NCBI GenBank assembly: GCA_008638015.1
Contig: VTPD01000006.1
Location: forward strand, 1-52,966
Reading direction: 5' to 3'
From: Pelagibacteraceae bacterium
GTDB taxonomy: Bacteria; Pseudomonadota; Alphaproteobacteria; Pelagibacterales; Pelagibacteraceae
Length of the DNA stretch: 52,966 nucleotides
A program made the position numbers and the translations under genes. Shown here one piece after another: positions 34,643 to 52,889 of the stretch. Each line of letters opens with the position of its first letter. The first letter of the stretch is position 1. The notes beneath the pieces are model-generated. The model saw only the letters and a program-made list of their open reading frames with translations. It made no database searches and was not told where the DNA came from.

Positions 34643-35518
34643 TTATACTTTATCAATTAATTTTTCATTTTCTTTTCTTGTCGCAATATAAACTCCGAGG
34701 GTAGCGATAGCTAAACCTATCACATCAAAAGTAGTTAATACTTCATCAACAAACATCCAGGCCATAACAGCAGAGACGGGTGGTATTAAAAAAAATAAAG
34801 TACTTGTTTTGCTAGCAGATCCAATTTTGATTAAAAACATTAAGATAGTAAAAGCCCCAAAAGAAACTGCAATAATTTGCCAGCCCATCGCTAAAATAAA
34901 GTTTGTAGTAAAATGAATAAACGGATTTTCTAAATACAATGAAGCTACTAAAAGAAAAATACTAGCACTAAAAGACTGATACATATTGTTAGTTGCAAGT
35001 GGCATATCCATACTTAATTTTTTTTGCCATAAAGTTCCTGCGGTAATTGCAACTAAAGCAGTGCAGGATGCAATCAAACCAATCAAGGGTAATGTATCTA
35101 AAGCATCAATACCTAAAACTAATAATGTTCCACTAAAACCAAAAAAAATTCCCACCCATTGCCTCCATGTCACAACCTCACCAAGCAAGGGTCCTGCCAA
35201 TAAAGAAGTAAGAATGGGTTGCATGGTAACAATTAATGCAACAATTCCAGCTGGCATACCTTGAGAAAAAGAAAACCAACAACCACCTAAATAAATTCCA
35301 TGAAACAATATTCCGGTAGCCATCGCTTTAGAAGTTTCGCTAAAGGAATGAATTATTTTTTGCTTGGTAACAAGGGAGTATAAAAAAAAACAAACACAAA
35401 CAATAGAAAATCTAAAACACAGTGCTGCAAAAGGAGAGGCATCAACTACAATTACTTTTCCAGTAATAAAAGCAGATGACCACAATATAACAAATGCAAA
35501 AGGAAAAAATTGTACCAT
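34643..35518 (-). CDS. EamA/DMT-family transporter
   Basis: This 291-residue protein has ten hydrophobic segments arranged as two EamA repeats, the layout of drug/metabolite exporters. The first repeat starts FFPFAFVILWSSAFITGK and the second includes LWQKKLSMDMPLATNNMYQS before its five helices. Members export amino acids or other metabolites, so pairing with the DadA-like gene suggests an amino-acid link; that is inference. Its C-terminus is a basic KENEKLIDKV tail. Confidence 0.9.
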   Translation of the reverse strand: MVQFFPFAFVILWSSAFITGKVIVVDASPFAALCFRFSIVCVCFFLYSLVTKQKIIHSFSETSKAMATGILFHGIYLGGCWFSFSQGMPAGIVALIVTMQPILTSLLAGPLLGEVVTWRQWVGIFFGFSGTLLVLGIDALDTLPLIGLIASCTALVAITAGTLWQKKLSMDMPLATNNMYQSFSASIFLLVASLYLENPFIHFTTNFILAMGWQIIAVSFGAFTILMFLIKIGSASKTSTLFFLIPPVSAVMAWMFVDEVLTTFDVIGLAIATLGVYIATRKENEKLIDKV

Positions 35519-35706
35519 TAAAATTACACTTTTAGCTGATTAATAGACTAACGTTATAATTTAAAGTCAAAAGTAACAAAAGAACAAATGAGGATAGTCG
35601 ATTAGTGATATTAATATTTTTTGGACTTAATTATTAAAACTTATAGTTATTCATTTGCTTAAAAATATATTTTGAGTAAAAATAATTTTATAATTATATT
35701 AATCAC
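35519..35706. other. AT-rich gap of 188 bp
   Basis: Between the EamA gene and the end of the phoR-linked secreted protein gene (both on the minus strand) is an AT-rich stretch without a clear ORF. A short inverted repeat, CACTTA GTAAT TAAGTG, overlaps the end of the upstream secreted protein gene and could help end transcription, but it lacks a T-run. Confidence 0.4.
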
Positions 35707-36348
35707 TTAGTAATTAAGTGAATTATAAACAACTTTTATATTACTTCTTTCCACTGAGAGATTACCAATGCAAGATATAGGACTTACTTTTTGAGATAGA
35801 GCGTATTTGTTAGTTGGTCTTAAAACAACTTCTAAAAAAACAACTTTTACCAATGATTTTCTATAACTTTCTGGTAATGCCCATGGTTGATTTGAGGGAG
35901 GATAAAATCTTTCAACTAAATACGAAGCTACCTGCGATTCTGATAGTGTTGATTGAGGCTGTGTTCTTAAAAGGGTATATCGAACTTGATCAAATAACTC
36001 CCTACACTTGTTACTTGAACTTAGATAATCTCTTTCCTGCAATCCTCTGGAAACAGGAATAGAAACAGATGCAATTACTGCAGTTTTCCTCCAATTATAG
36101 ACTACAGATGTTTCTACCTCATCTTTTCTATCCTCAATTAAGTTTGTTAACAAAGGTGAGGTAAAAAGCTTTATAATTCGATCAATAGATTTTTCCAAAT
36201 CTTTTTCTAGATTAATGACCCCTAAATCAAGATAATTTAAAGGACGTTTCATTAAATTCATGATGACATCCTTTTCTTCTGATTTTGCAGATAAAGCAAA
36301 ATAAAGAAAAATTAAAATAAAACAAAAAATTTTATTTAATTTTTTCAT
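35707..36348 (-). CDS. Uncharacterised secreted protein linked to phoR (213 aa)
   Basis: The N-terminus has a signal peptide (basic MKKLNK, hydrophobic core about residues 7-22, cleavage near AKSEE). The mature part has two short hydrophilic helical stretches followed by beta-rich segments (VETSVVYNWRKTAVIASVSIPVS, SLVKVVFLEVVLRPT) and ends VERSNIKVVYNSLNY. One Cys pair (Cys114, Cys193) could form a disulfide. No family is recognised. The gene starts 17 bases inside the end of phoR, so it is translated with the sensor kinase. A role in envelope phosphate sensing is possible but unproven. Confidence 0.65.
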   Translation of the reverse strand: MKKLNKIFCFILIFLYFALSAKSEEKDVIMNLMKRPLNYLDLGVINLEKDLEKSIDRIIKLFTSPLLTNLIEDRKDEVETSVVYNWRKTAVIASVSIPVSRGLQERDYLSSSNKCRELFDQVRYTLLRTQPQSTLSESQVASYLVERFYPPSNQPWALPESYRKSLVKVVFLEVVLRPTNKYALSQKVSPISCIGNLSVERSNIKVVYNSLNY

Positions 36349-37585
36349 ACAAAGGTAAGTAAACTATAAACTTACTTCCCTCATTAAGTCTACTAAAAAT
36401 TTCTATTTCGCCTCTATGTTGATTCACAATATGTTTTACGATAGCTAAACCTAGCCCTGTACCTGGTATTAAGTTTTTTTTTGCATTTGCAGAACGATAA
36501 AAGCGTTCTGTAACTCGATGAATTTCATCGTTAGATATTCCAATACCTTGGTCTTGAATACAAAAGACAACAGCTCCATGCGTAAGTTTATTTAAATTTA
36601 TTTTCAAACTTATCTGAATACTTGAAGATTTATTTGAATACTTAATTGCGTTATCAAAAAGATTTTGTACTACTTCTGATAGCTTATCATAGTCACCTCT
36701 TACCTCTGGGATAAAATCATCAGCTGTGACTTCTATTTTTAATTTTTTTTCAAAAACTGCTTTATTGGGAGTATTTTTTATATTATTTACCAAATCTAAT
36801 AAATCAACTTTTCCACTAGGTTGGATATGTTCTTGCATTTCAATTCGACTTAAAGACATTAAATCAGATATTAAAATTTCCATTTTTATAGCCTGTTCTT
36901 GCATAATTTTTATAAATTCTAATTGAGCTTTAGGATCATCTTTGGCTGTAGAAGAAATAGTTTCTAAAAAACCTTTAATCGAAACAAGAGGAGTTTTAAG
37001 TTCATGACTCACGTTGGCTACAAAGTCTGATCTTAATTTTTCGGTTTTTTTAACGTCAGTATAGTCTTTAATAACTAACAAAATATTTTTTTGACTTAAG
37101 GGTACAATCGTTAACCTAAAAAAACTATATGTAGGTAGGTTAATCTCAAATTCTAAATATTCATTTACCCTCTCTTTTCGACACTTTTCAATTTTATCCA
37201 ATAGGTCTGGGACTCTTAAAAAACTTGATAAATTTTTTCCTATAATTTCACCATAATAATTTTTGGCTGCTTTATTTGCTGCAGAAGTAGCGTTAAATGA
37301 ATTAATGAACAGAATGTAATCTTCAATCTCATTTATCAACTGATTCTCAATATCTTTGGATGAATAAGACTTGGATGAAACAATGGCTTGATGATTTTGA
37401 TTAGATCTAAAATTAATTTTATTTTTCTGACTTTGATTAACAAAATATAATATTAAAATAATTGTATTTGATATTACAAGAATTGCTAAAGCCGTAAAAT
37501 TAATATGCTTTATTTGATATAACCCAACAAATACAAAATAATTTAAGAGCAATAAAAATTTCATTTTTTTATTTAAGTATAACAT
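36332..37585 (-). CDS. phoR: PhoR-type sensor histidine kinase
   Basis: PhoR phosphorylates PhoB when phosphate is scarce. The 417-residue protein has two closely spaced N-terminal membrane helices (about 9-23 and 31-48), a PAS-like domain (about 80-175, with ILFINSFNATSAANKAAKNYYGE), the dimerisation box FVANVSHELKTPLVSIKG with His194, and an ATPase domain with VVQNLFDNAIKYSN (N box), QDQGIGIS and PGTGLGLAIVKHIV. The absence of a large periplasmic loop matches PhoR. phoB lies some 9 kb away in the same block rather than adjacent. It is divergent from olsB and its end overlaps the next secreted protein gene by 17 bases. Confidence 0.9.
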   Translation of the reverse strand: MLYLNKKMKFLLLLNYFVFVGLYQIKHINFTALAILVISNTIILILYFVNQSQKNKINFRSNQNHQAIVSSKSYSSKDIENQLINEIEDYILFINSFNATSAANKAAKNYYGEIIGKNLSSFLRVPDLLDKIEKCRKERVNEYLEFEINLPTYSFFRLTIVPLSQKNILLVIKDYTDVKKTEKLRSDFVANVSHELKTPLVSIKGFLETISSTAKDDPKAQLEFIKIMQEQAIKMEILISDLMSLSRIEMQEHIQPSGKVDLLDLVNNIKNTPNKAVFEKKLKIEVTADDFIPEVRGDYDKLSEVVQNLFDNAIKYSNKSSSIQISLKINLNKLTHGAVVFCIQDQGIGISNDEIHRVTERFYRSANAKKNLIPGTGLGLAIVKHIVNQHRGEIEIFSRLNEGSKFIVYLPLYEKIK

Positions 37586-37595
37586 TTTAATTTAA

Positions 37596-37639
37596 TTCAT
37601 AATACTGAAACATATTCTTCATATTATTGAAATGAAATC
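37596..37639 (+). promoter_or_regulatory. 22-bp tandem repeat in the phoR/olsB gap
   Basis: Two 22-base units (37596-37617 and 37618-37639) begin TTCATA and share TGAAA at the same place; about 15-16 of 22 bases agree. Twenty-two bases is two DNA turns, as expected for paired PhoB half-sites of 11 bases. The half-sites are weaker than those before pstS or plcP, so the call is tentative. Confidence 0.35.
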
Positions 37640-37656
37640 AGTCTAATTAATTTGGT

Positions 37657-38475
37657 ATGTCTACCGAATTATTAACTAAAGTACCTTTTGCAAAAAAAAT
37701 AAATATTATTACTACAAATTTTTTTACTCCAAAAATTGATTGTTATTTTGCTGAAAGTAAAAAAGAAATAAAACTTGCCCAGCGTCTAAGGTATAAAGTT
37801 TTTTTTACAGAGCATGATAAAAAACTATTATCTTTAAAATATTTTAAAAAAGACGCTGATCAGTATGATCAGTTTGCAGATCATTTAATTGTTACACATA
37901 AATATAGTAAATTTGCAAAAACAAAGGTTGTTGGAACTTATAGGCTCTTAAAAAGTACATCAGCTAAAAAATGTGGTTTCTATTCTAAAGAAGAATTTCA
38001 AATTGATAAAATGATTAGCAATCATCAGAATCAAAATTTACTTGAGCTTAGCCGATCATGCATTGATCTAAATTTTAGAAAAAAAAATATTTTACAGTTT
38101 ATGTGGAAAAAAATTCATCATTATATTTTGCAAAATAAAATTGATGTATTGTTTGGAATGGCAAGTTTCTTAAATGTTCAACCAGAGGCTATAAAAACTG
38201 AATTAACCTATCTTTACCAAAGATTTTTAATGGATGAAAAAATTAGAGTTTCGGCATTAGATCATCGCAAGGTAAATATGAATATAACAGACTTAGAAAA
38301 TGTTTCAGAATTATCAATTATAAAAAATCTTCCCACGCTTGTAAAAGCTTATTTAAGATTAGGAGCTAAAATTGGAGATGGAGCAGTTGTAGATAAAATT
38401 GTTAAAACTACTGATATTTTTATTTATTTGCCCTATAAGAATATAAGCGAAACTTACCTGAAAAAATTTATATAA
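37657..38475 (+). CDS. olsB: Ornithine N-acyltransferase OlsB
   Basis: OlsB attaches a 3-hydroxy fatty acyl group to ornithine, the first step of phosphorus-free ornithine lipid synthesis. The 272-residue protein has the GNAT/OlsB features LAQRLRYKVFFTEHD near residue 46, VVGTYRLLKS near 90 and LLELSRSCIDLNFRKKN near 126, followed by the FGMASFLNVQPEA region. Its neighbours (olsA next, phoR divergent) place it in the phosphorus-stress block. Ornithine lipids are known to replace phospholipids when phosphate is low. The ATG at 37657 has no clear Shine-Dalgarno. Confidence 0.88.
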   Translation: MSTELLTKVPFAKKINIITTNFFTPKIDCYFAESKKEIKLAQRLRYKVFFTEHDKKLLSLKYFKKDADQYDQFADHLIVTHKYSKFAKTKVVGTYRLLKSTSAKKCGFYSKEEFQIDKMISNHQNQNLLELSRSCIDLNFRKKNILQFMWKKIHHYILQNKIDVLFGMASFLNVQPEAIKTELTYLYQRFLMDEKIRVSALDHRKVNMNITDLENVSELSIIKNLPTLVKAYLRLGAKIGDGAVVDKIVKTTDIFIYLPYKNISETYLKKFI

Positions 38476-38485
38476 AGCTTTAAAA

Positions 38486-39265
38486 GTGAAATCATTATTA
38501 TCTTGGTTGTTTGGATTTTCCTATTTGAAAAAAATTTACCAAAAGTACTATAATACTCCTGAACTTAAAGAAAATTTCTGGAACACGGCATTAAATATTT
38601 TTAATATTCGATATTCTATTTTAAATTCTGAATATATTCCCAATTCAGGTGCGGTAATAATTGTATGCAATCATCCCTTTGGTTTATTGGATGGTTTAAT
38701 TATTACTAATGTAATTTGCCAAAAAAGATCTGATTATAAAATTCTAATCAATGATGAAATTTCACAAGTTGATTTAATTCGTCCCTATCTAATTCCTTTA
38801 AAACTTGATGGAAAAAAAAATAGTATAAAATTTAATCTTCAATCAAAAGAGGATGCGATTAACCATGTTAAAGATGGAGGGGCTTTAATTATTTTTCCAT
38901 CTGGTGAAGTTGCAACTAAAGAAACACTTTTAGGAAATGTAATAGAAAAAAAATGGCAATCTATTCTTGGCTCAATTGTTCGAAAAACAAATGCAAAAAT
39001 TTGTCCTGTTTATTTTAAGGGAAACAATAGTATGATCTTTCAAATTACGGGTCTTATTTATTATCCTCTAAGAAGAATCTTATTTGCAAGAGAACTTATC
39101 AATAAAAAAAATAAGTTTTTTGAATCTGTTTGTTTACCTCCTCTGAATACATCACAATTTACTGGAATTGCAAACGCTGACATTGCAGATCAACTTAGAA
39201 ATATCACGCTTCAAGGCGAAAAAATTTTTAATAATTTGGACAACAGTTTTCTTCAAAAATTTTAG
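38486..39265 (+). CDS. olsA: Lyso-ornithine lipid acyltransferase OlsA (PlsC-like)
   Basis: OlsA adds the second acyl chain to lyso-ornithine lipid; the same PlsC fold also acylates lysophosphatidate. The start is the GTG at 38486, 10 bases after the olsB stop. The catalytic motif is NHPFGLLDG (His63, Asp69), that is H-x5-D rather than the common H-x4-D; NHPFGxLDG is the pattern I know from the acyltransferase domain of fused OlsF-type proteins. The second block is FPSGEV near residue 136. The 259-residue product has no N-terminal signal but has basic and amphipathic stretches for membrane contact. The end overlaps the glycosyltransferase gene tail-to-tail by 38 bases. Confidence 0.85.
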   Translation: MKSLLSWLFGFSYLKKIYQKYYNTPELKENFWNTALNIFNIRYSILNSEYIPNSGAVIIVCNHPFGLLDGLIITNVICQKRSDYKILINDEISQVDLIRPYLIPLKLDGKKNSIKFNLQSKEDAINHVKDGGALIIFPSGEVATKETLLGNVIEKKWQSILGSIVRKTNAKICPVYFKGNNSMIFQITGLIYYPLRRILFARELINKKNKFFESVCLPPLNTSQFTGIANADIADQLRNITLQGEKIFNNLDNSFLQKF

Positions 39266-40238
39266 CACATTCTTCCCAAGTATATTTACTGGACAAAGCT
39301 TTACATTTATTTCTGTCAATTTTTAGGGCTTTTAAAGCAGAAATTTTTAAATCGTCATGCAAACTATCAATCTCGGTTCCTCCTGTAATATCAATAGGGC
39401 CAGGAACTCTATAAGCAGCAATAGGAAGTCCAGCGGCAAGTGCTTCAATGAGAACAATACCAAAAGTATCAGTTTTGCTTGGAAAAACAAAAACATCACT
39501 TGATGCTAAATAATTTGCAATTTCTTTATCATTTAGCATACCAGTATAAACAACATTGGGATATTTTCTTTTCACTTCATGCATTTGAGGACCGTCACCT
39601 ACAACAATTTTTGTGCCTTCAACATCCAATTCTAAAAATGCTTTAATGTTTTTTTCAATAGCAACTCTTCCAACATAAATCCAAACAGGCCTTTTAAAAT
39701 CTTTGACTTTTGTTCCACTGGCAAAAATTTTATGCTCTACACCTCTAGTCCAAACTTTAAGCTTATTTTCGTCAAAACCATTTTTGAATAACTCTTCTTT
39801 CATAGTTTGGGTTGTGACTAAAATAGATTGGGAATGTTTATGAAAAAATCTCATAAAACGATAAGAAAAATTGATAGGAATTTTTATTCTCTCATAAACA
39901 TATTCAGGAAATTTTGTATGATAAGATGTTGTAAATTTAATCTTATTCTTAATACAGTATTTACGTGCAAAAAAACCAAGTGGTCCCTCAGTTGCAATAT
40001 GAACAACTTGGGGATTGTAATTTTTTATTATTTTATTAATTTTTGGCCATGCATTTAGTGAAAGTCTTATTTCAGGGTAAGTAGGCATTGGAAAAGTAAT
40101 AAATTCTTTCGGCGTAATGTATTTAACTATATGGCCACGTATTTGAAGTTTTTGTCCAAGATTATACATGGTTCTAACAACGCCATTGGTTTGGGGAAAC
40201 CAAGCATCAGTGATAATTAAAATTTTATACCGATCCAC
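39228..40238 (-). CDS. GT4-type glycosyltransferase (Agt-like, diacylglycerol glycosylation)
   Basis: This 336-residue GT-B enzyme starts DRYKILIITDAWFPQTNGVVRTM, with the GT4 nucleotide-sugar site VFPSKTDTFGIVLIEALAAGLPIAA (near residue 255). The order (glycosyltransferase directly after PlcP) matches the known bacterial pair in which PlcP makes diacylglycerol and Agt adds a sugar to form a glycolipid that replaces phospholipid. The donor (UDP-glucose, galactose or glucuronate) cannot be told from the sequence. Start is a GTG at 40238, 8 bases after the plcP stop, so the two are co-transcribed. Confidence 0.85.
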   Translation of the reverse strand: MDRYKILIITDAWFPQTNGVVRTMYNLGQKLQIRGHIVKYITPKEFITFPMPTYPEIRLSLNAWPKINKIIKNYNPQVVHIATEGPLGFFARKYCIKNKIKFTTSYHTKFPEYVYERIKIPINFSYRFMRFFHKHSQSILVTTQTMKEELFKNGFDENKLKVWTRGVEHKIFASGTKVKDFKRPVWIYVGRVAIEKNIKAFLELDVEGTKIVVGDGPQMHEVKRKYPNVVYTGMLNDKEIANYLASSDVFVFPSKTDTFGIVLIEALAAGLPIAAYRVPGPIDITGGTEIDSLHDDLKISALKALKIDRNKCKALSSKYTWEECAKIFEENCCPNY

Positions 40239-40246
40239 AACAAAAT

Positions 40247-41101
40247 TTAAGATACAACTCTGATTTTCTCTTGTTGACCTTGTCTAAATTCCTCTTCAAT
40301 AAGCGCATCTTCTGAGATTTCTTTTCTTTTATCAAGCCAATGAATAAGTTCAAAATTACCATTAAAATGCTCAACTAAAGCCGTACAGTTCTCAACCCAA
40401 TCACCGCAATTTTTATATTCAATATCTTTCATCTTCTCCATGGCGGGGTGATGGATGTGCCCACAAATAACACCCTGGGCATTTTTTTGTTTTGCAGAGC
40501 TAACTACCAAAGACTCAAATTCACTTATAAACTTTACTGCATTTTTTACCTTAAACTTTATATATTTTGATAATGACCAATACTCTTTTCCAAATCGCCT
40601 TCTAAAATAATTTAAGTATCGGTTAAATGCGATAAGAGCTTCATATGCAACCGATCCTAAGATTGATAACCATTTTGCATATCTAATGATTCCATCAAAT
40701 TGATCTCCATGAATAACCCAATATTTTTTCCCATTAAGCGCTTCGTAGATTAATTGATTTAAAATTTCCACATTTCCTAAATTAATTGGAATAAACTTTC
40801 TTAAAATTTCATCATGATTGCCTGCTATGTAAAAAACGCGGGTTCCATGTCTTGCTTTTCTTAAAATTTTTTGAATTACGTCATTATGCTGTTGTGGCCA
40901 ATACCATCTATTTTTTAGAGCCCAGCCATCAACGATATCACCGACTAAATATAAATTTTCAGATCTCGTATATTTAATAAATTCTAAAACCATATCAGCT
41001 TGACAACCTCTTGTTCCCAAATGAATATCTGAAATCCATATAGACTTATATTGTAGTATTTTTCCATGAATACTTTGTAATTTTGTTGTTTTGTCAAACA
41101 T
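40247..41101 (-). CDS. plcP: PlcP-type phospholipase C metallophosphoesterase
   Basis: PlcP hydrolyses membrane phospholipids to diacylglycerol under phosphate limitation and belongs to the LpxH-like metallophosphoesterases. The motifs are all present: SDIHLG (Asp25, His27), GDIVDGW at 54-60, GNHDE at 94-98, HGDQFDG at 131-137 and GHIHHPA at 214-220. The 284-residue protein has no signal peptide and a basic middle that could meet the membrane. The alternative call is the lipid-A enzyme LpxH, but the pairing with a GT4 glycosyltransferase, the Pho box upstream and the phosphorus-stress block favour PlcP. The ATG at 41101 is close to the predicted transcription start. Confidence 0.85.
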   Translation of the reverse strand: MFDKTTKLQSIHGKILQYKSIWISDIHLGTRGCQADMVLEFIKYTRSENLYLVGDIVDGWALKNRWYWPQQHNDVIQKILRKARHGTRVFYIAGNHDEILRKFIPINLGNVEILNQLIYEALNGKKYWVIHGDQFDGIIRYAKWLSILGSVAYEALIAFNRYLNYFRRRFGKEYWSLSKYIKFKVKNAVKFISEFESLVVSSAKQKNAQGVICGHIHHPAMEKMKDIEYKNCGDWVENCTALVEHFNGNFELIHWLDKRKEISEDALIEEEFRQGQQEKIRVVS

Positions 41102-41125
41102 AAACGAATCTCTATTTCTAGTTGA

Positions 41126-41154
41126 ATCATGATAGTGTTACAGATGAGTTAAAG
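41126..41154 (-). promoter_or_regulatory. Pho box before plcP
   Basis: Three 7-base half-sites are spaced exactly 11 bases: CTTTAAC (41148-41154), CTGTAAC (41137-41143) and TCATGAT (41126-41132), read on the minus strand, with four-base spacers. The middle site is a near match to the PhoB consensus CTGTMAT/CTGTAAC type. It ends 24 bases before the plcP ATG, a place where PhoB replaces the -35. Confidence 0.65.
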
Positions 41155-41316
41155 TTTTTTTAAAAATTAATTACTTTAGTAGATTGTAAAGTTAATAAAT
41201 AATTTAATATAAAAAAAAATTTTCATAAATACGAATGTCTTATAAATTTAATAAAAAATTAACTTTTATAATTTCTATAACCTCTATAAAACGCAGTTGT
41301 TAATATTTAACATAGT
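41155..41316. other. AT-rich part of the plcP/arsC intergenic region
   Basis: The longest gene-free stretch in the window runs 41102-41475 (374 bp). This half is very AT-rich. A 22-codon frame at 41235 has no Shine-Dalgarno and is not supported. A direct repeat, TCTATAACC TCTATAA, lies near 41275-41290. No tRNA or known riboswitch is seen. Confidence 0.4.
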
Positions 41317-41390
41317 CCCCTCAAGACCTCATTTTTAAGTTATCGCTCATAAAATCCCTTCAAGAAAATGAGGTTTTGAAAATTTTTTTT
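41316..41390 (+). ncRNA. Candidate small RNA 3' end: long hairpin with U8
   Basis: A 15-bp stem (arms 41321-41335 and 41365-41379, one G-U pair) encloses a 29-base loop and is followed by AAA and eight T on the plus strand, the form of a Rho-independent terminator. No plus-strand gene lies upstream for it to terminate. An 11-base direct repeat TCCC(C/T)TCAAGA lies at 41316-41326 and 41355-41365. The 5' end of any transcript is not known. Confidence 0.4.
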
Positions 41391-41436
41391 CCACTATTTC
41401 TAATTAAATAGCATTTACTTTCCAATAGATTTGATC

Positions 41437-41465
41437 ATTTAATAAATTTGTAACAATTTTATAAT
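41437..41465 (+). promoter_or_regulatory. Possible Pho box and -10 for arsC
   Basis: Half-sites ATTTAAT (41437-41443), TTGTAAC (41448-41454) and TTATAAT (41459-41465) are spaced 11 bases; only the middle one is strong. TATAAT at 41460-41465 is a perfect -10, 10 bases before the ATG, so the message would have a leader of only a few bases. Confidence 0.4.
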
Positions 41466-41475
41466 ATTTAAAATT

Positions 41476-41895
41476 ATGAAAAAAATTTTATTTCTTTGCA
41501 CAGGTAACTCTGCACGATCTATTATATCTGAGTGCCTGTTAAATCACATGGGTGGGAATAAATTTAATGCATATAGCGCTGGTTCAAAGCCTACTGGCAA
41601 GGTTAATCCTTATGCAATACAAACTTTAATAAAAAACAATGTTAATTATAGCTATGTTTCAAGCAAATCATGGGATGCGTTTGTAAATAATAGTTTTGAT
41701 TGTGTAGTAACAGTTTGTAATAATGCTGCAAATGAATCTTGTCCGATCTATCCTGGATCACCTAAAAAATTACATTGGGATTTAAAAGATCCAGCGGCTT
41801 TTGAAGGGAGTAAAGAGGAAATATTAAAAGAATTTCAAAAAACTTTTGATCTTATAAAAAAATATATTGAACAAGATTTTTTACATAAATTATGA
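41476..41895 (+). CDS. arsC: Thioredoxin-type arsenate reductase (ArsC, low-molecular-weight phosphatase fold)
   Basis: ArsC of this type reduces arsenate to arsenite using a three-cysteine relay and thioredoxin. The 139-residue protein has the CX5R loop CTGNSARS (Cys8, Arg14). The two further cysteines are Cys81 and Cys89 (TVCNNAANESCP), matching the spacing of the Cys10/82/89 triad known from the plasmid pI258 enzyme. The relay cysteines separate it from a plain tyrosine phosphatase. It overlaps the aquaporin gene by 4 bases. Arsenate enters through phosphate transporters, so its place in the phosphorus-stress block makes sense. Confidence 0.9.
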   Translation: MKKILFLCTGNSARSIISECLLNHMGGNKFNAYSAGSKPTGKVNPYAIQTLIKNNVNYSYVSSKSWDAFVNNSFDCVVTVCNNAANESCPIYPGSPKKLHWDLKDPAAFEGSKEEILKEFQKTFDLIKKYIEQDFLHKL

Positions 41896-42542
41896 GACAA
41901 ATTGAAAAATATGTTTCAGAATTTATTGGAACATTGATTTTACTATTATCTATAGTTGGATCAGGGATTATGGGTCAAAAATTATCTCAAAATGAAGGAA
42001 TAATACTATTAGCAAATTCATTAGCTATTGGATTTACATTGGTATTTTTAATTATAACATTTGGTAAGCGCTCCGGTGCACACTTTAACCCAGCAGTAAC
42101 TTTGGTAATGCTATTATTAAACAAAATTAAGAAAAATGAGGCATTTTTTTATGTCATTATGCAGCTGACTGGAGCATGCGTGGGTGTAATATTGGCGAAT
42201 ATTATTTTCGATTTAAATGCAATAACGTTGTCATCAAAACATAGAGAGGGTTTTCAGTTAAATTTTTCCGAATTAATATCAACTTTTGGTTTAATATTGA
42301 TCATTATATTAAATCAAAATAAACAAATTGAAGTTATTGGAGCTTTAGTTGGTCTGTATATTGCTGCAGCTATTTGGTTTATGTCGTCAACTGCATTTGC
42401 TAATCCAGCTGTCTCTTTGGCCAGAATGCTAACTGATACATTCACTGGTATACATTATTCTAGTGTTTTTCCATTTATTGTATCTCAATTGTCGGGAGCT
42501 TTGATTTCTTTAATTATCTTAAAAAAGATTTACAAAATTTAA
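41892..42542 (+). CDS. aqpS: Aquaporin / MIP channel (AqpS-like)
   Basis: Aquaporins conduct water or small neutral solutes, and AqpS of Sinorhizobium is known to let arsenite leave the cell. The 216-residue protein has six helices and both half-helix motifs, NPA at 66-68 (HFNPAVTL) and NPA at 171-173 (FANPAVSLARML), with the selectivity Arg178. No Acr3 or ArsB pump gene is nearby, so the channel likely provides the arsenite exit. It starts inside arsC (4-base overlap), which supports a joint role in arsenic detoxification. Confidence 0.88.
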   Translation: MRQIEKYVSEFIGTLILLLSIVGSGIMGQKLSQNEGIILLANSLAIGFTLVFLIITFGKRSGAHFNPAVTLVMLLLNKIKKNEAFFYVIMQLTGACVGVILANIIFDLNAITLSSKHREGFQLNFSELISTFGLILIIILNQNKQIEVIGALVGLYIAAAIWFMSSTAFANPAVSLARMLTDTFTGIHYSSVFPFIVSQLSGALISLIILKKIYKI

Positions 42543-42556
42543 GTTTGTATTATACT
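42529..42556 (+). promoter_or_regulatory. Promoter for the lysine-rich small gene
   Basis: TTTACA (42529-42534), a 16-base spacer and TATACT (42551-42556) form a sigma-70-type promoter at the end of aqpS. Shine-Dalgarno AAGGGGA at 42579-42586 lies about 6 bases before the ATG at 42592. Confidence 0.45.
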
Positions 42557-42591
42557 TTTTTTCAATACTAACAAAAAAAAGGGGAACTGTA

Positions 42592-42801
42592 ATGAAAAAA
42601 AAATTAAAAAAACATGAAGGAAAAAAAAGAAAATTTTTAAAATCTATTTCTAAACTAAAAATTAAAATTTCTGCTAAAGAAAAAAAAGTTTCAAAAATTG
42701 ATACTAAAATTGCAGGTATTGAAAAAAAAATTGCTGAAAAAAAAGCTAAAAAGTTAGCAAAAAAAAATACCGATCCAACAAGCGCATCATTAAATAATTA
42801 G
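42592..42801 (+). CDS. Lysine-rich coiled-coil-like small protein (69 aa)
   Basis: Twenty-five of 69 residues are Lys. Residues 1-58 look like a continuous charged helix (KISAKEKKVSKIDTKIAGIEKK) with hydrophobic residues spaced as in a coiled coil, and the tail NTDPTSASLNN is neutral. A strong Shine-Dalgarno and an own promoter support expression. No family is recognised. Such proteins often bind nucleic acid or other polyanions. Its neighbours on the other side are ppx and ppk, so polyphosphate binding is an untested possibility. The stop is 2 bases from the end of ppx on the opposite strand. Confidence 0.6.
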   Translation: MKKKLKKHEGKKRKFLKSISKLKIKISAKEKKVSKIDTKIAGIEKKIAEKKAKKLAKKNTDPTSASLNN

Positions 42802-42802
42802 A

Positions 42803-44305
42803 TTAAAAGTACAGTATTTTGAAGTCCAGATCCATTTCTTTGGATAGGGACTTCAATCTCTTCTGAACAGTTCTGGTAATTATTTGAGAATGAATGTTCG
42901 GAACAGATAATATTATAGCACTTCCCTTTTTAGATAAAGATATACTATCTAAAAATATGGTAGATATTGATGCAATTCCAGATGCAAGTCTCAAGGCTGC
43001 TCCAACTTGTTTTGCAATTAAAATTTCATTGTTAGATAAAAGTTTTACAAAATTTAGATCTGGATAGTACTTTACAGAACAATGTCGCCAGAAACCCGCT
43101 AAAGCAATTTTGATTCTATCGCTATGGCTTAACGCTAATGCTGGTGTATTTAAAATTTGAGAAAAAACAAGTTCAGCTTTTTGAAAAGCACCCAAGCCCC
43201 AGTCCATATTACTTAACGAACAAACAGGCTTTAATAAACGTATTGGAAAATTTTCATTATCACTAAAAATATCTTTAATAAAATTATAATACTTTAGATA
43301 ATTTTCTCCATAATCTCCGTTTTTAAAAGCTGAATATTCTATAAAGTTATTTAATCGATCTTCATCTATTAAATTATAATTGGCTTTTTGCATCAGCGTT
43401 CCTTCCCTAACACCGGCAATAGAACATTGTATTTTTTCTGGACCCGTTAAGAATAGCAATTGTTTTAAAATATTTGAAGCAATTGGAATATAATTTGTTC
43501 TTGATTTTGTAATTTGATCAAGTTTATGTAGTGTAGTTTTTTTTTTATCATCAAACATATTACATAAGGTCAAAGCTTCATCTCCAGTAATTTCATATTG
43601 ATGAAGAATATTTAGTGGATATTGCTTATAAAAAATATCGGCTTTCATCAAAGCCCTCCAAACACCTCCCACAATATATAAATGCTTAACTTTTGTTTTT
43701 TTAAGCCAACTAATAGAATTTAATTGGTCTGAAATAATTTCTATAATTTTTTTTGTTTTTTTTTTCTTGGGCTGATTGTGTAGTCTTAATACACCGATAG
43801 GAAGTGAAGCCTTTTTTTCAATAACATTATTTTTAACACGTGCTAGCTCTAAACTACCTCCGCCCAAATCTGCTACAATTCCATTAACTTTTTCAAAACC
43901 AAGCATAACGCCAAGGGCCGAACGTTCAGCTTCTTGCTCGCCAGTGAGAACTTCCACTTCACAATTAAAAATTTTTTCTACAGTTGCTTTAAATTCAGAT
44001 CCATCTTTTGCATCTCTAACTGCTGCGGTGGCAAACAGATGTACATTCGTTACTTTTGAATTATCTAAAATATTTTTAAATCTTTCTAAAACTTTTAAAG
44101 AATATTGCACCCCTAAAGGGTCTAGTTTTCCATTTATTTCAAGATTATTTCCTAATGAACAAACAGCTTTTTCATTAAAAATTGGAATTTGCGATTTATT
44201 AAATTCTTCATAAATGAGCATTCGAATAGAGTTTGATCCAAGATCAATAACTGACTCTTTTTTAGCTGTAAAAATTTGTTGTTTTATAACTTTTCGAAGT
44301 AACAT
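42803..44305 (-). CDS. ppx: Exopolyphosphatase (Ppx/GppA family)
   Basis: Ppx cleaves terminal phosphates from polyphosphate; GppA forms also act on pppGpp. The 500-residue protein has the actin-fold phosphate loops VIDLGSNSIRMLI (near residue 20) and GIVADLGGGSLELARV (near 140), with the catalytic acid in EAERSALGV. The C-terminal half (about 310-500) is the HD-like helical domain of longer Ppx proteins. It follows ppk directly with no gap (TAA-adjacent), as in many proteobacteria. The exact balance of polyphosphate versus pppGpp use cannot be told. Confidence 0.9.
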   Translation of the reverse strand: MLLRKVIKQQIFTAKKESVIDLGSNSIRMLIYEEFNKSQIPIFNEKAVCSLGNNLEINGKLDPLGVQYSLKVLERFKNILDNSKVTNVHLFATAAVRDAKDGSEFKATVEKIFNCEVEVLTGEQEAERSALGVMLGFEKVNGIVADLGGGSLELARVKNNVIEKKASLPIGVLRLHNQPKKKKTKKIIEIISDQLNSISWLKKTKVKHLYIVGGVWRALMKADIFYKQYPLNILHQYEITGDEALTLCNMFDDKKKTTLHKLDQITKSRTNYIPIASNILKQLLFLTGPEKIQCSIAGVREGTLMQKANYNLIDEDRLNNFIEYSAFKNGDYGENYLKYYNFIKDIFSDNENFPIRLLKPVCSLSNMDWGLGAFQKAELVFSQILNTPALALSHSDRIKIALAGFWRHCSVKYYPDLNFVKLLSNNEILIAKQVGAALRLASGIASISTIFLDSISLSKKGSAIILSVPNIHSQIITRTVQKRLKSLSKEMDLDFKILYF

Positions 44306-46396
44306 TTATTTTTTTAGATTATTTACATTATCTTTGATAATTGATTTGCCCTGACCAGACAAGCTTGGATTGTTCATAAAATATTCATGTGCCGAAAAAG
44401 TAGCACGAATTTGCTTAATCTTTGTGTAAGTTTTATCTCTGAGAGCCCAGCTTAATTTGTTATCTTTATAATTTGCCATCATTATTTGATCTAAAACCTG
44501 CGCATGTACCGTTTCATTTTTTATTCGTAACATAACTTCCAATCTTCTATCTAAATTTCTTGGCATTAAATCAGCGGAAGAAATAAAAACTAAATTATTT
44601 CTTGAAGGCATTGGAAATCCATTAGCAAAACAATAAACTCTTGAGTGTTCTAAAAAACGACCAACAATACTTTTAACGTATATATTTTCAGATAACTTTT
44701 TTACTTGAGGTCTTAAACAACATATTCCTCGAACGAATAGATGTATTTTTACTCCAAAATTTGAGGCTTCATATAAACGATCTATAATTTTTGGATCCAC
44801 TAAAGAATTCATTTTTGCCCAGATTTCAGCATGCTTGCCAACTTTTGCATTTTCAATTTCTTGATCAATCAATGTATTTAATTTAGATCTCAAAAATTTA
44901 GGAGCTAGTATAATATTTTCTAACTCTCCTGGATCTCCATAACCAGTAACAAAATTAAAAAATTTTTCTATCTCGTTAGTGTACCCCTCATCTGCACTAA
45001 ATAATGAAAGATCTGTATAAATTTTTGCATTAATAGGATGATAATTTCCAGTTCCAACATGGATATACTTTTTTAAACTACCCTCCTCTTCTCTTATAAC
45101 CAAGCTTGCTTTTGCATGAGTTTTTAAATGAACAAAACCATAAACAACTTGAACACCTGATCTTTGCAATGATTTAGCCAAACTAATGTTTGCCTCCTCA
45201 TCAAATCTTGCCTTAATCTCAACAACAGCGGTGACTGATTTTCCATTTTCTGCTGCTTGCTTTAATGCTTTAACAATTGGAGAGTCGAGCGTTGTTCGAT
45301 ACAATGTTTGTTTAATAGTTCTAACATGACTATCAAAAGCCGCTTGATTTAAAAATTGTATTACAGCATCAAATGTTTCGTAAGGATGATGAACAATCAT
45401 ATCTTTTGCTTGAATAGCTGCGAAATAATCATTATTAAATTGATGAACTCGTTCAACATCTCTAGGGTTGAAAGGTTTGTAGTAATAATTTTTTTTACCC
45501 TCTTTTAAAATTTGTGAAATCTCATGCGTTCCAACAAATTCTTCAATTTCATCAACTGTATCCTCATCAGCTTTTAAATTTTTTTGTAAAAATTTTTTTA
45601 ATTTTTCATTAGATCCTTTTCGTAATTCAAGCCTAACAATTCTACCTCTTTTTCTCTTCTTTAAAGCTTTCTGATAAAATAAGACTAAGTCCTCAGCTTC
45701 ATCCTCAATTTCAATATCGCTATCTCTTGTTATACGTGCAGAAATATAATCTTTTATGACATACCCATTAAATAATTGAGAACTAAATGAACTAACTATT
45801 TCTTCTAAAGAAATATAGTTTTTTATATTTGGCGATGAACTTATATTATAAAAACGCTTTAAAATCTTTGGAAGTATGACAATTGCATAGTGTGATTTTT
45901 TTTTCTCAGCTTTTTTTAATTCCATCAAAAGAAAATGGCCTTGATTAAATAAGAAAGGAAAGGGATGGGAGGGATCAATTGCTTGTGGAGTTAGAACTGG
46001 AGCAATTTCTTTTATAAATATAGACAATAAATTTTGTTTTTCACTTTCAGTAAGTCGATTAAAAGTTTTAAAAAAAATACCTTCTTTGGCTAAGTTCTTT
46101 TTAAGTTTAGACCAAATTAAATTTGATTTCTTTAATAATTCAACAGTTTTAATTTTAATTTTTTTTAATTGTTCTTTTGGAGTTAGGCCATCGATCGTTT
46201 TATGCTTAATTTTCTCTTTCATTTGAGCATAAACACCCGCTACACGCACCATATAAAACTCATCAAGATTATTAGATGCTATCGACAAAAATCGAACCCT
46301 TTCATATAAAGGAATATCTTTATTATCAGCCTCAGATAACACTCTTGAATTAAACTCAAGCCAAGAAATTTCTCTGTTATTGTATTTGCTTGTCAT
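44306..46396 (-). CDS. ppk: Polyphosphate kinase Ppk1
   Basis: Ppk1 builds polyphosphate from ATP reversibly through a phosphohistidine. The 696-residue protein has the N-terminal helical domain (FNSRVLSEADNKDIPLYERVRFLSIASNNLDEFYMVRVAG), the head domain, and two phospholipase-D-like C domains. The phosphorylated His is in the HVGTGNYHPINAKIYTDLSLF stretch (near residue 450), with HSRVYCFANG (near 585) as the second catalytic His. ppx follows at once. The ATG is divergent from sixA with a 33-bp gap, so they share a regulatory region. Confidence 0.95.
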   Translation of the reverse strand: MTSKYNNREISWLEFNSRVLSEADNKDIPLYERVRFLSIASNNLDEFYMVRVAGVYAQMKEKIKHKTIDGLTPKEQLKKIKIKTVELLKKSNLIWSKLKKNLAKEGIFFKTFNRLTESEKQNLLSIFIKEIAPVLTPQAIDPSHPFPFLFNQGHFLLMELKKAEKKKSHYAIVILPKILKRFYNISSSPNIKNYISLEEIVSSFSSQLFNGYVIKDYISARITRDSDIEIEDEAEDLVLFYQKALKKRKRGRIVRLELRKGSNEKLKKFLQKNLKADEDTVDEIEEFVGTHEISQILKEGKKNYYYKPFNPRDVERVHQFNNDYFAAIQAKDMIVHHPYETFDAVIQFLNQAAFDSHVRTIKQTLYRTTLDSPIVKALKQAAENGKSVTAVVEIKARFDEEANISLAKSLQRSGVQVVYGFVHLKTHAKASLVIREEEGSLKKYIHVGTGNYHPINAKIYTDLSLFSADEGYTNEIEKFFNFVTGYGDPGELENIILAPKFLRSKLNTLIDQEIENAKVGKHAEIWAKMNSLVDPKIIDRLYEASNFGVKIHLFVRGICCLRPQVKKLSENIYVKSIVGRFLEHSRVYCFANGFPMPSRNNLVFISSADLMPRNLDRRLEVMLRIKNETVHAQVLDQIMMANYKDNKLSWALRDKTYTKIKQIRATFSAHEYFMNNPSLSGQGKSIIKDNVNNLKK

Positions 46397-46429
46397 AATT
46401 TTTTAACTAAAAATTTATATATATTAGAA

Positions 46430-46936
46430 ATGTTAACATTATATGTCATGCGCCATGCCAAATCTAGTTGGGATCAGGACAATATATCTGACTTTGAACG
46501 ACCTTTAAGTAAACGAGGCCAACATAACGCAAAATTAATGGCTAAAGTGATGAAAGAAAAAAAAATGTTTTTTGATATAGCTTATGTCTCTGGTGCTAAA
46601 AGAACAGTTGAAACATTTCGATATATAAAAGATTTAAATCTTAAAAAAAAGAAAATAAAAAAAGATCACTACCTAACAAGCATTAAAAGTTTACTAAAAA
46701 GTATTCAGACAACAAAAGATAAATACAAAAGTGTATTAATCTTAAATCACGAGCCCCTTGTATCAAAATTAACCCATCAATTATGTTCAAAATTTAAAAA
46801 TTCACCAAAAGATATGATAGATAAATTCAGCACTGGAGCTGTTGCTATTATTCAATTTGAAAAAGAATCCTGGGAGAAAATAAGATATGGTGATGGAAAA
46901 TTAGAAGGATTTATAAAACCGAAGTATTATTATTGA
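46430..46936 (+). CDS. sixA: SixA-type phosphohistidine phosphatase
   Basis: SixA removes phosphate from phosphohistidine, known on the HPt domain of ArcB and on PTS proteins. The 168-residue protein starts MLTLYVMRHAKSSWDQ with the RHG-type motif RHA (Arg8, His9) and has the SGAKRTVETFRYI helix and LNHEPLVSKL (second catalytic His). It belongs to the histidine phosphatase superfamily. It is divergent from ppk and its end overlaps phoB tail-to-tail by 7 bases. A link to polyphosphate or PhoR/PhoB signalling is only a guess from location. Confidence 0.85.
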   Translation: MLTLYVMRHAKSSWDQDNISDFERPLSKRGQHNAKLMAKVMKEKKMFFDIAYVSGAKRTVETFRYIKDLNLKKKKIKKDHYLTSIKSLLKSIQTTKDKYKSVLILNHEPLVSKLTHQLCSKFKNSPKDMIDKFSTGAVAIIQFEKESWEKIRYGDGKLEGFIKPKYYY

Positions 46937-47616
46937 ACATCTAAAGCATATCCTGCTGATCGAACTGTTCTAATTAAATCTACTTTTCCCTCAAGATTAA
47001 TAGCCTTTCGAAGTCTACGAATATGAACATCAACAGTTCGTGTTTCAACGTAAATAGCATTACCCCATACTTGGTTTAACAATTGCTCTCTTGAATAAAC
47101 ACGACTTGGATTTTTAATAAAAAAATTTAACAAATTATATTCCGTAGGTCCTAGTTTAATTTGGTTATCTCCACGATAAACTCTTCTAGATAAACGATCA
47201 ATTTTTAAATCTTTGAAAACTACTATATCTTCGATTAAGGATGGCTTCGCTCTTTTTAATAATGCTTGAACTCTCAAAACTAGCTCTTTTGTACTAAATG
47301 GTTTAGTTACATAATCGTCCGCACCAGTCTCAAATCCTCTAATTTTATCAGTTTCTTCTGATTTTGCAGTTAACATGATCACGGGTATAGATTTAAGTCT
47401 TGGCTCTCTTTTAATTAAATCGCAAACTGCAATTCCGGACAGATCTGGAAGCATCCAATCTAAGATAACTAAATCTGGTAAATTTTTTTTTACCTGCTCA
47501 ATACCATCCTCGCCATTTTGAGAAATGATAATTGTATAACCCTCTTTTTCTAAGTTATATTTTAATAAAGTTGAAATAGATTTTTCGTCTTCTACAATTA
47601 AAACAGTTGCACTCAT
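46930..47616 (-). CDS. phoB: Phosphate response regulator PhoB
   Basis: PhoB, phosphorylated by PhoR, activates genes with Pho boxes. The 228-residue protein has a receiver domain with the acidic pocket VEDE near residue 10 and phosphoacceptor Asp53 (LVILDWMLPD), and a winged-helix output domain (VYSREQLLNQVWG, RTVDVHIRRLRKAI). The start chosen is the ATG at 47616 (MSATVLIVEDEKS); TTG codons upstream also fit. It lies 9 bases after phoU on the same strand and is the last gene of the pst operon. Confidence 0.95.
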   Translation of the reverse strand: MSATVLIVEDEKSISTLLKYNLEKEGYTIIISQNGEDGIEQVKKNLPDLVILDWMLPDLSGIAVCDLIKREPRLKSIPVIMLTAKSEETDKIRGFETGADDYVTKPFSTKELVLRVQALLKRAKPSLIEDIVVFKDLKIDRLSRRVYRGDNQIKLGPTEYNLLNFFIKNPSRVYSREQLLNQVWGNAIYVETRTVDVHIRRLRKAINLEGKVDLIRTVRSAGYALDVQ

Positions 47617-47625
47617 CAACAATAA

Positions 47626-48324
47626 TTATTGTCCCGATAATATATCAGATTGTCCCTTAGGTCGATCACCTTCAATGTCATCTCCAGTTACTAAATAATA
47701 AACTGTTTCAGCAATATTTGTTGCATGATCTCCCATACGCTCTAGATTTTTAGACATAAATAAAAGATGAGCAGCTGGTTTAATGTAATTTTTTTCCCCT
47801 TCCATAAATTCAGTTACAGAATTCATCGAAATATCAATTAAGTTATCAATTTCCTCATCTGAGTTCCAAACCATTTCAGCAACTTTTGCATCCCGATTTA
47901 CAAATGCATCTAGAACTAATTTTAAATTTTTTTGAACCTTTTCAGAGGCTGCACCAATTGTTTTTTTTATATTGTCAGGGAGCTTTACAGACACATAGCG
48001 TGAACGTTTTGCGATATTCTTGGCCAAATCTCCAATTCTTTCTAGATCACCTGAAATTTTCATTGCAGAAACTGTTTCCCTAAGATCGATAGCCATGGGT
48101 TGCCTCATAGTAATTAAGTCAACAACTTGCGCTTCAATATTCTTTTCGAGTTCATCGATACGATCATCTTTGCCAACAATTTCATCAACAAATTCTTGAT
48201 CATTAGTCAATAAAGCTTCAGTTGCATCTTTAATTTGTTTTTCAGCAAGCGCTCCCATTTTTGCAATCGTATTTGTTAAAATGCTCAACTGTTCGTCGTA
48301 GGATTTTACTAAATGTTCTGCCAT
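47626..48324 (-). CDS. phoU: Phosphate transport system regulator PhoU
   Basis: PhoU helps switch off the Pho response when phosphate is plentiful, working with PstB and PhoR. The 232-residue product is all helical, a tandem of two PhoU domains with the metal-site ExxxD regions (GKDDRIDELEKNIE and ERMGDHATNIAE). The ATG at 48324 is preferred over an in-frame TTG at 48336; GGAAGG lies about 10 bases before the ATG inside the end of pstB. The stop of pstB and this ATG are only 4 bases apart, so they are translated together. Confidence 0.95.
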   Translation of the reverse strand: MAEHLVKSYDEQLSILTNTIAKMGALAEKQIKDATEALLTNDQEFVDEIVGKDDRIDELEKNIEAQVVDLITMRQPMAIDLRETVSAMKISGDLERIGDLAKNIAKRSRYVSVKLPDNIKKTIGAASEKVQKNLKLVLDAFVNRDAKVAEMVWNSDEEIDNLIDISMNSVTEFMEGEKNYIKPAAHLLFMSKNLERMGDHATNIAETVYYLVTGDDIEGDRPKGQSDILSGQ

Positions 48325-48328
48325 ATCA

Positions 48329-49087
48329 TTAACCAAACCTTCCTGTTATATAATCCTGTGTCATTTTATTATCAGGATTCTTAAATAGTTTATCTGTTGT
48401 ATTAAATTCAATCAATTTTCCTAAATGAAAGAAACCGGTATATTGAGAAACTCTTGCTGCTTGAGACATAGAATGAGTAACAATAGCAATAGTATATAAT
48501 GATTTTAATTCATCAATCAAAGTCTCAATTTTAGCTGTAGCAATAGGGTCAAGTGCTGAACAAGGTTCATCCATCAAAATAACTTCTGGATTAATTGAAA
48601 TTGCTCTAGCAATACATAATCTTTGTTGTTGACCTCCTGATAATCCAGTTCCAGGCTCATCTAAACGATCTTTAACTTCATCCCATAATGCAGCTTGTTT
48701 TAGACTGTTTTCAACAATTTCATCCATGTGATTTTTATCTTTTGCAATTCCATGAATGTCAGGTCCATAAGATACATTTTCATAAATACTTTTTGGGAAT
48801 GGATTTGGTTTTTGAAAAACCATACCAACTCTTTCTCTCAATTGAACCACATCAACTGATTTATCATAAATATTTTCCCCATCGATTTCGATCACTCCAC
48901 TGACTTTACAAATATCAATGACATCATTCATTCGATTTAAACATCTAAGAAAAGTTGACTTTCCACAACCCGAAGGTCCAATTAAGGCGGTGACCTGTTT
49001 TTCTGCTACATTTAAATCAACATCAAATAAGGCTTGTTTTTCTCCATAAAAAACCGAAACACCTTTTGCTTTAATTTTATTTTTCAT
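48329..49087 (-). CDS. pstB: Phosphate ABC transporter ATPase PstB
   Basis: PstB powers the PstCA permease. The 252-residue protein has Walker [10 protein letters not shown] near residue 37, the Q loop in [10 protein letters not shown], the signature LSGGQQQRL near 149, Walker [14 protein letters not shown] near 169 and the switch His in VTHSM. The PstB-specific [16 protein letters not shown] is present. It lies 6 bases after pstA and 4 before phoU. Confidence 0.97.
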
Positions 49088-49093
49088 TTTGTT

Positions 49094-50359
49094 TTACCAT
49101 TTCCTTTCAAATTTTTGTCTTGCCCATACAGCCAAAGAATTCATGATGATTAAAAATCCAATTAGCAACATAATCGTTGCAGAAGTTTTTTCAACAAAAC
49201 CTCGCTCTGCTGACTCTGACCACAAATAAATTTGCACTGGCAAAGATGTTGAAGGATCAGTTGGAACAGATGGAACATCAACAACAAAAGCTACCATTCC
49301 TATAAGCAAAAGTGGTGCTGTCTCACCCAAAGCTTGTGCAAGACCAATGATTGTTCCTGACAATGTTCCAGGCATAGCTAGTGGAACCACATGATGCATA
49401 ACAGTTTGAACTTTTGAAGCACCCACTGCAAGTGCACCTTCACGTATTGATGGGGGAACTGCTTTTAATGATGCTCGACAGGCAATAATAATTGTTGGAA
49501 GTGTCATTAAAGATAACGTAATTCCGCCAACAAGTGCTGTCGATCTGGGAAGACCAAAAACACCCAGTAACATTCCCAATCCCAAAAGTCCAAATACAAT
49601 TGAGGGAACTGCTGCCAGGTTATTAATATTAATCTCAATAATATCCGTAACTATATTTTTAGGAGCAAATTCCTCAAGATAAACTGCAGCCATAAGTGCA
49701 ATAGGAAAAGAGATAATCAAACAAATAATAATAGAAAAAAATGATCCTATAATAGCACCAGCCACACCTGCAATTTCTGGATCTCTAGAATCTCCACTAA
49801 ATAAAAAGTAGTTACTAAATACAGTTTTAATTTTACCCTGTTCTAATAAATTATCATAAATATTTAATTGAAAATTATTTAATCGCCTTCTATCTTCTGG
49901 AATATCTCGGGGGAAATTTCCTTTATGCAATTGGTCTAAATCATCAGACGCTGTTAGGTCAATCATTACTTTTTTGCCAAGAGCATCTGGATTATTTATT
50001 AAATAATTTTTGATCTCTAATTCATAATTTCCACTTAACAATTGTTTTACATCCTTCTCCTCTTCAGCGTTTGAATAAGGAAATAAACCTGTTGCAGCTT
50101 TGTAAGTCACATCAAAAAACTCTGCAGATTTGATTTGTTCAATATTTGGATTTGCAACGTCTTTTAGCTCCAAAAGTTCTTTATTAAAATCAACTTCAGT
50201 TTGTATCGTTGTTTTGACAAATGCAGTGCTGCCTGTTGAAAAAACTTTTAGTAACAATAAAAAAACAAAAAATATTGCTATAGCGATTGCGCCAATTCCC
50301 ATTAGCCTAAAACGCTTTTCAGCGGTGTATCTTTTTTTTAATCTTTGCTCTCTAGTCAT
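49094..50359 (-). CDS. pstA: Phosphate ABC transporter permease PstA
   Basis: PstA is one of two membrane subunits of the high-affinity phosphate importer. With the ATG at 50359 (MTREQRLKKRY) it has 421 residues, longer than the 280-300 of enteric PstA. It has a large extracytoplasmic insertion (about residues 45-165) after the first helix and six helices later, with the EAA-type loop SLKAVPPSIREGALAVGASKVQT. The long form is common in alphaproteobacteria. The ATG overlaps the pstC stop by 8 bases. An upstream in-frame start would add 12 residues but lacks a good ribosome site. Confidence 0.95.
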   Translation of the reverse strand: MTREQRLKKRYTAEKRFRLMGIGAIAIAIFFVFLLLLKVFSTGSTAFVKTTIQTEVDFNKELLELKDVANPNIEQIKSAEFFDVTYKAATGLFPYSNAEEEKDVKQLLSGNYELEIKNYLINNPDALGKKVMIDLTASDDLDQLHKGNFPRDIPEDRRRLNNFQLNIYDNLLEQGKIKTVFSNYFLFSGDSRDPEIAGVAGAIIGSFFSIIICLIISFPIALMAAVYLEEFAPKNIVTDIIEININNLAAVPSIVFGLLGLGMLLGVFGLPRSTALVGGITLSLMTLPTIIIACRASLKAVPPSIREGALAVGASKVQTVMHHVVPLAMPGTLSGTIIGLAQALGETAPLLLIGMVAFVVDVPSVPTDPSTSLPVQIYLWSESAERGFVEKTSATIMLLIGFLIIMNSLAVWARQKFERKW

Positions 50360-51755: not shown

Positions 51756-51774
51756 AGTGTCCTCTTACTGTTAT

Positions 51775-51801
51775 TTTGAGGGCCTATTTTAGGCCCTCAA
51801 A
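51775..51801 (-). terminator. Strong hairpin between pstS and pstC
   Basis: A 12-bp perfect stem (arms 51775-51786 and 51790-51801) closes a 3-base loop, with TTGAGGGCCTA and its complement. No T-run follows on the coding strand, so it is more likely to stabilise the pstS message or only partly stop transcription than to be a full terminator. Confidence 0.6.
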
Positions 51802-51817
51802 TTTTAAAAACTCAAAC

Positions 51818-52834: not shown

Positions 52835-52883
52835 TTTTAATTTTCCTTTGTTTTAGTTTTAGAGTTTAAGTGTCCCGGATTTA

Positions 52884-52889
52884 ATCTTA
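52884..52889 (-). promoter_or_regulatory. Likely -10 element of the pst operon
   Basis: TAAGAT on the minus strand lies 15 bases downstream of the last Pho half-site and about 50 bases before the pstS ATG, leaving a leader of about 40 bases. No good -35 is present, as expected for a PhoB-activated promoter. Confidence 0.4.

Follow-up and report, generated by a model that had tools for sequence, protein, structure and literature searches.

A putative lipid-renovation module in a rearranged phosphate island of a SAR11 (Pelagibacteraceae) genome

The question raised by this locus is whether its adjacent metallophosphoesterase and glycosyltransferase genes serve the replacement of membrane phospholipids when phosphate is scarce, or belong instead to the synthesis of lipid A and the LPS core. 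The window, i.e. the whole stretch of DNA analysed, is one complete contig of 52,966 bp from a draft genome of 1.09 Mb in 67 contigs. Based on gene identities assigned by homology, on intact motifs and on conserved gene order and Pho-box-like sites, we consider it very likely that the locus is a lipid-renovation module of the SAR11 (Pelagibacteraceae) kind, embedded in a Pho island. The pathway is already known from relatives, and it explains phosphorus saving by the most abundant bacteria of the ocean; the window is a further example of it, in a rearranged Pho island. Added here are a well-supported example, an independent putative control site for the ornithine-lipid arm and a sign that a whole phosphate cassette may move between genera.

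The function of the two genes has been studied in relatives. A Phaeobacter plcP mutant regains lipid remodelling when complemented with PlcP of HTCC7211, and E. coli expressing the Agt of HTCC7211 forms MGDG and GADG (PMC4796936). The purified SAR11 enzyme GTcp forms MGlc-, MGal- and MGlcA-DAG (PMC8231724). Under phosphate depletion, SAR11 isolates were found to make ornithine lipids and not glutamine lipids (PMC6298996). Methylosinus trichosporium OB3b (PMC9239053) and Agrobacterium, with its Agt, resemble the window in the plcP-agt pair, there linked to glycolipids under phosphate limitation, but they belong to other alphaproteobacterial orders.

Gene layout of the Pho island

The original prediction had placed a plcP and glycosyltransferase pair, with a Pho box, at 39228-41154, and both genes were found there. 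The features of the island are as follows.

35707-36348, minus strand: sen0, conserved ORF of 213 aa, no Pfam match, downstream of phoR
36332-37585, minus strand: phoR, phosphate sensor kinase (TIGR02966, 279 bits, cut-off 334)
37605-37633, plus strand: Pho-box-like site between phoR and olsB (conserved block, matrix score)
37657-38475, plus strand: olsB-like N-acyltransferase gene, ornithine lipid step 1 (NCBIfam OlsB model, Pfam Acetyltransf_5)
38486-39265, plus strand: olsA-like O-acyltransferase gene, ornithine lipid step 2 (acyltransferase part of OlsF, Pfam acyltransferase domains)
39228-40238, minus strand: agt, 336 aa, GTG start, GT4 glycosyltransferase of the GTcp/Agt kind
40247-41101, minus strand: plcP, 284 aa, phospholipase C-type metallophosphoesterase
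41126-41154, minus strand: Pho-box-like site upstream of plcP-agt, CTTTAAC-tcat-CTGTAAC-acta-TCATGAT
41437-41465: Pho-box-like site at the arsC-aquaporin pair (matrix score)
41476-41895, plus strand: arsC, LMWPc-type arsenate reductase (TIGR02691, 106 bits, below cut-off; Pfam LMWPc)
41892-42542, plus strand: aqpS-like aquaporin gene (Pfam MIP)
42803-46396, minus strand: ppx and ppk, polyphosphate metabolism (ORF reading and island homology)
46930-47622, minus strand: phoB, activator of the Pho regulon (TIGR02154, 327 bits, above the cut-off of 296)
47626-52834, minus strand: phoU-pstB-pstA-pstC-pstS (ORF reading and island homology)
52905-52933: Pho-box-like site upstream of pstS (matrix score)

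Both plcP and agt lie on the minus strand with an intergenic gap of 8 bp and a Pho-box-like site upstream, in line with the predicted two-gene arrangement. The olsB and olsA genes, adjacent on the plus strand with a 10-bp gap, converge on the pair as had been described; at their 3' ends olsA and agt share 38 bp (39228-39265), and an overlap of comparable size is present in the closest relatives. Beyond olsB lies phoR, and on the far side of plcP follow arsC, the aquaporin gene, ppx, ppk, sixA, phoB, phoU and pstBACS. The names of ppx, ppk, sixA, phoU and the pst genes are based on ORF reading and homology, with no family search. Only 132 bp of contig remain upstream of pstS, so that the outer end of the island lies outside the sequence. 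In relatives, the homologue of sen0 lies between phoR and pstS.

One of the related genomes, G037, encodes an Agt in the 334-aa register in which all 15 residues checked from the GTcp mutant list, as well as the primer-encoded peptides, are present. Because this Agt matches GTcp in length, residues and primer peptides, G037 is HTCC7211 or nearly so. It shares with the window the order and orientation of the four genes (olsB and olsA on the plus strand, agt and plcP on the minus strand) and their position next to phoR. The two differ in that PlcP and Agt are about 56-61% identical (about 60% for PlcP), that the window block lies on the other side of ppk-phoB-pst, and that arsC-aqpS directly follows plcP in the window. 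A four-gene cluster was reportedly described by Carini et al. 2015 ('SAR11 lipid renovation'), with which the four-gene block of G037 agrees.

An LMWPc_ArsC-aquaporin pair has been described in SAR11 (PMC6426599). As in the low-phosphate SAR11 of that report, the aquaporin gene of the window is downstream of arsC on the same strand; the window pair differs in its place directly after plcP in a Pho island. In the plcP-arsC spacer (41102-41475, 374 bp), an inverted repeat CCTCATTTT...AAAATGAGG followed by a T-rich stretch was seen by eye, and an Rfam search of positions 35000-43000 gave no match. Elsewhere in the window, a second metallophosphoesterase (16494-18197, minus strand, 567 aa), in which the phosphoesterase domain covers just the N-terminal part, is encoded next to a TctA-type transporter gene, and a sulfatase gene lies further off.

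Identity of PlcP and Agt

All the metal motifs of PlcP read in the original prediction were confirmed, namely DIHL (25), GDIVD (54), GNHD (94), GDQFD (132) and GHIH (214), and Pfam Metallophos matched with 48 bits. The closest named relatives of the protein are from Pelagibacteraceae, i.e. SAR11. No relative was found in a scan of viral contigs for PlcP and, thus, there was no sign of phage carriage. Another metallophosphoesterase, common to the genomes compared (G000:C12), was considered and set aside as not PlcP-like in appearance.

An enzyme of lipid A synthesis could also carry such motifs: the metallophosphoesterase might be a UDP-2,3-diacylglucosamine hydrolase of the LpxH type, with the neighbouring glycosyltransferase acting in LPS core synthesis as an RfaG-type enzyme. 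PlcP is the sole LpxH-type match in the genome, its similarity to LpxH is weak but real, also in the PDB search, and the names LpxH and RfaG have apparently been given to the corresponding genes in phosphate islands of the related HIMB59 order (PMC10734472). LpxC was found in the draft genome, so that lipid A is presumably made, but a search of the draft for LpxI gave no hit. However, the scores of PlcP against two LpxH models are far under the cut-offs (46.2 bits, cut-off 190.35; 55.4 bits, cut-off 134), and its GNHD motif stands at the position of GNRD in E. coli LpxH. A quick maximum-likelihood tree separated 20 LpxH from 62 PlcP-like proteins, the window's among the latter, with an SH-aLRT support of 100, and several genomes encode one true LpxH and one PlcP-like protein each. 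PlcP thus stands apart from LpxH by tree, scores and motif, the phylogeny having been named as a check in the original prediction.

The missing lpxI also has a ready explanation. In two genomes of the same genus without plcP (G002 and G005), LpxI, whose identity was confirmed with Pfam for the G002 protein, is encoded between lpxA and lpxB, and the lpxB of the genome studied here is cut off by the beginning of a contig. The absence of lpxI from the draft can therefore be ascribed to the contig edge that cuts lpxB, next to the site of lpxI in genomes of the same genus, and a role of PlcP in lipid A, to which this absence might have hinted, was rejected. Nor does plcP lie beside lipid A genes, an arrangement that had been held to speak against the predicted pathway; it sits in the Pho island, and the hydrolase gene found between lpxA and lpxB in the same genus is lpxI. 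Taking scores, GNHD motif, tree, co-occurrence and lpxI of the same-genus genomes together, we regard the LpxH and RfaG assignment as highly improbable and the assignment to PlcP as preferred.

The glycosyltransferase next to plcP had been predicted to be a GT4 enzyme, and Pfam indeed assigned GT4 and GT1 domains to it. The UDP-sugar motifs GRVAIEKN and FPSKTDTFG are present in register. All GTcp-essential positions, i.e. those whose mutation left GTcp with little or no activity, are kept: Gly16, Gly82, Gly85, His104, Arg163, Arg190, Lys195, Asp256, Thr257, Phe258, Gly259, Glu264 and Trp320. These findings, together with the four-gene order shared with G037, agree with the proposed match to the known PlcP-Agt pathway of marine bacteria. 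GT4 enzymes are diverse, and most library and PDB matches of Agt have other GT4 functions, which would suit an acceptor other than diacylglycerol, such as a surface polysaccharide or a small molecule, with an incidental pairing with plcP. The conserved residues argue against this, as they include the catalytic His-Asp dyad and the His, Arg and Trp that contact diacylglycerol, and the adjacency of plcP and agt is kept in Pelagibacterales and in many other Alphaproteobacteria. We therefore find another acceptor scarcely credible, and diacylglycerol is the acceptor predicted for Agt.

Putative ornithine-lipid genes and Pho-box-like sites

OlsB matched the NCBIfam OlsB model with 228 bits, the curated equivalog cut-off being 320, and the best match of OlsA was to the acyltransferase part of OlsF (124 bits, cut-off 620). 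As both scores are under the equivalog cut-offs, the product might be another aminolipid, e.g. glutamine lipid, made alongside the plcP-agt products; in Ruegeria, OlsA takes part in making glutamine lipid as well (PMC6298996). On the other hand, the best matches of OlsB are OlsB models, and olsB adjoins olsA, whereas glsB is reported beside bamE and essentially in Rhodobacteraceae only (PMC6298996). SAR11 isolates, furthermore, make the ornithine and not the glutamine lipid. Another aminolipid is thus unlikely, and ornithine lipid is the predicted product.

Pho-box-like sites, i.e. consensus matches regarded as putative PhoB sites, were scored with a unit matrix trained on sites from relatives only. 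The site upstream of plcP has strong first and second 7-bp units, at a spacing of 11 bp, and a third that is weak. As a two-unit site it ranked first of the 105,876 window positions, and its score was reached by no position in 20 simulated windows; both results held when plcP sites were left out of the training. The block around it is conserved in front of plcP in most of the relatives from Pelagibacteraceae. With agt directly downstream and a putative PhoB site upstream, the neighbourhood of plcP is of 'type 2'. The claim of a clean three-site Pho box was correct as to the presence of the site, but because of the weak third unit it was slightly generous.

By three-unit score, the top sites in the window were, in order, those of plcP (in two registers), pstS, arsC and olsB. 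The olsBA genes appear to have a Pho-box-like site of their own, independent of that of plcP, which the original prediction did not include. The corresponding block is conserved in two related loci (L034 and L037) as three 11-bp repeats, CTGAAAC/CTGTCAT/CTGAAAC. This site ranked fifth of 105,876 with olsB sites in the training and 30th without them (regional p about 0.007); it is weaker than the plcP site, and its support without olsB training sites is suggestive. With the pstS class left out, the pstS site was likewise enriched but weaker (regional p about 0.004), and the arsC site, which was never in the training, had a regional p of about 0.001 by three units. The SAR11 unit is nearer to CTTTAAC/CTGTAAC than to the E. 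coli-type box: a search of the whole genome for the latter (CTGTCATnnnnCTGTCA, one mismatch) gave only two sites, both on other contigs, and these were dismissed.

For this organism, enzyme activities, substrates and induction are inferred by homology to HTCC7211 PlcP and Agt, to GTcp and to the SAR11 reports on ornithine lipids. When phosphate is scarce, PhoR-PhoB would switch on plcP-agt and probably also olsBA. PlcP would cleave off the phosphate headgroup of phosphatidylglycerol or phosphatidylethanolamine, yielding diacylglycerol and freed phosphorus, and Agt would transfer glucose, galactose or glucuronic acid onto the diacylglycerol. OlsB and OlsA would separately form ornithine lipid, for which diacylglycerol is not needed. 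Sugar lipids, both neutral and acidic, together with an aminolipid would in this way take the place of phospholipids.

Distribution and possible exchange of the island

Among 120 related genomes, plcP was found in 48 and olsB in 12, nearly all of the latter also having plcP; plcP-agt may thus be seen as the core of the module and olsBA as an addition. The synteny of plcP-agt and olsBA was found across Pelagibacteraceae. Only one (G004) of the five genomes of the same genus in the set has plcP.

Genes of the island and of its left flank differ in their closest relatives. The flanking lysS is 85-86% identical to the same genus and 70-76% to the other genera g8/g10, and other core genes of the left flank are also closer to the same genus. 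Within the island the reverse was observed, with identities to g8/g10 and to the same genus of 83-86% and 69% for plcP, 89-90% and 77-82% for pstB, 78-80% and 65-71% for phoB, and 80-81% and 70% for ppk. In G001 the Pho set found at the same place beyond eamA is smaller and its PhoR is distant (39%); a comparable set occurs in G005, further along. Since the island genes are closer to g8/g10 and the flanking genes to the same genus, the whole Pho island was probably replaced by transfer between SAR11 genera, and the lipid-renovation module would have arrived with it.

In g8/g10 the order is arsC-aqpS-ppx-ppk-sixA-phoB-phoU-pst followed by sen0-phoR-olsBA-agt-plcP, and in the window (35400-52966) these two blocks are swapped. 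The swapped order may be a misassembly of the draft contig. A wider proposal, for which we see the chances as evenly balanced, is that in this genus the complete phosphate system passes between SAR11 genera as a single cassette, located near gcrA, that can be inserted in permuted order. The cassette would comprise PhoR, PhoB, PhoU, Pst, Ppk/Ppx and ArsC/AqpS together with the lipid-renovation genes, and the membrane-remodelling module would therefore arrive together with the sensor and transporter that match it.

In the HIMB59 order, phosphate-related flexible genomic islands (fGIp-C to H) occupy a fixed place, in versions that are not in step with the phylogeny (PMC10734472). Like the window, they hold pst, phoBR, ppk, ppx, sixA and a glycosyltransferase gene in one island, along with genes for a Wzb-type phosphatase and GlpF and one under the name LpxH. 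Where PlcP and ornithine-lipid genes are named in the window, the text on these islands is without such names and uses the labels LpxH, RfaG, Wzb and GlpF. The analogy with the window suggests PlcP, Agt, ArsC and AqpS, respectively, as possible identities, and such labels in published phosphate islands should be read with the warning that they may mask these four. Finally, another related genome (G065) carries two near-identical plcP-agt-olsAB-phoR-pstS copies on two contigs (C3 and C13; L034 and L035), which could be a duplication or an assembly artefact.
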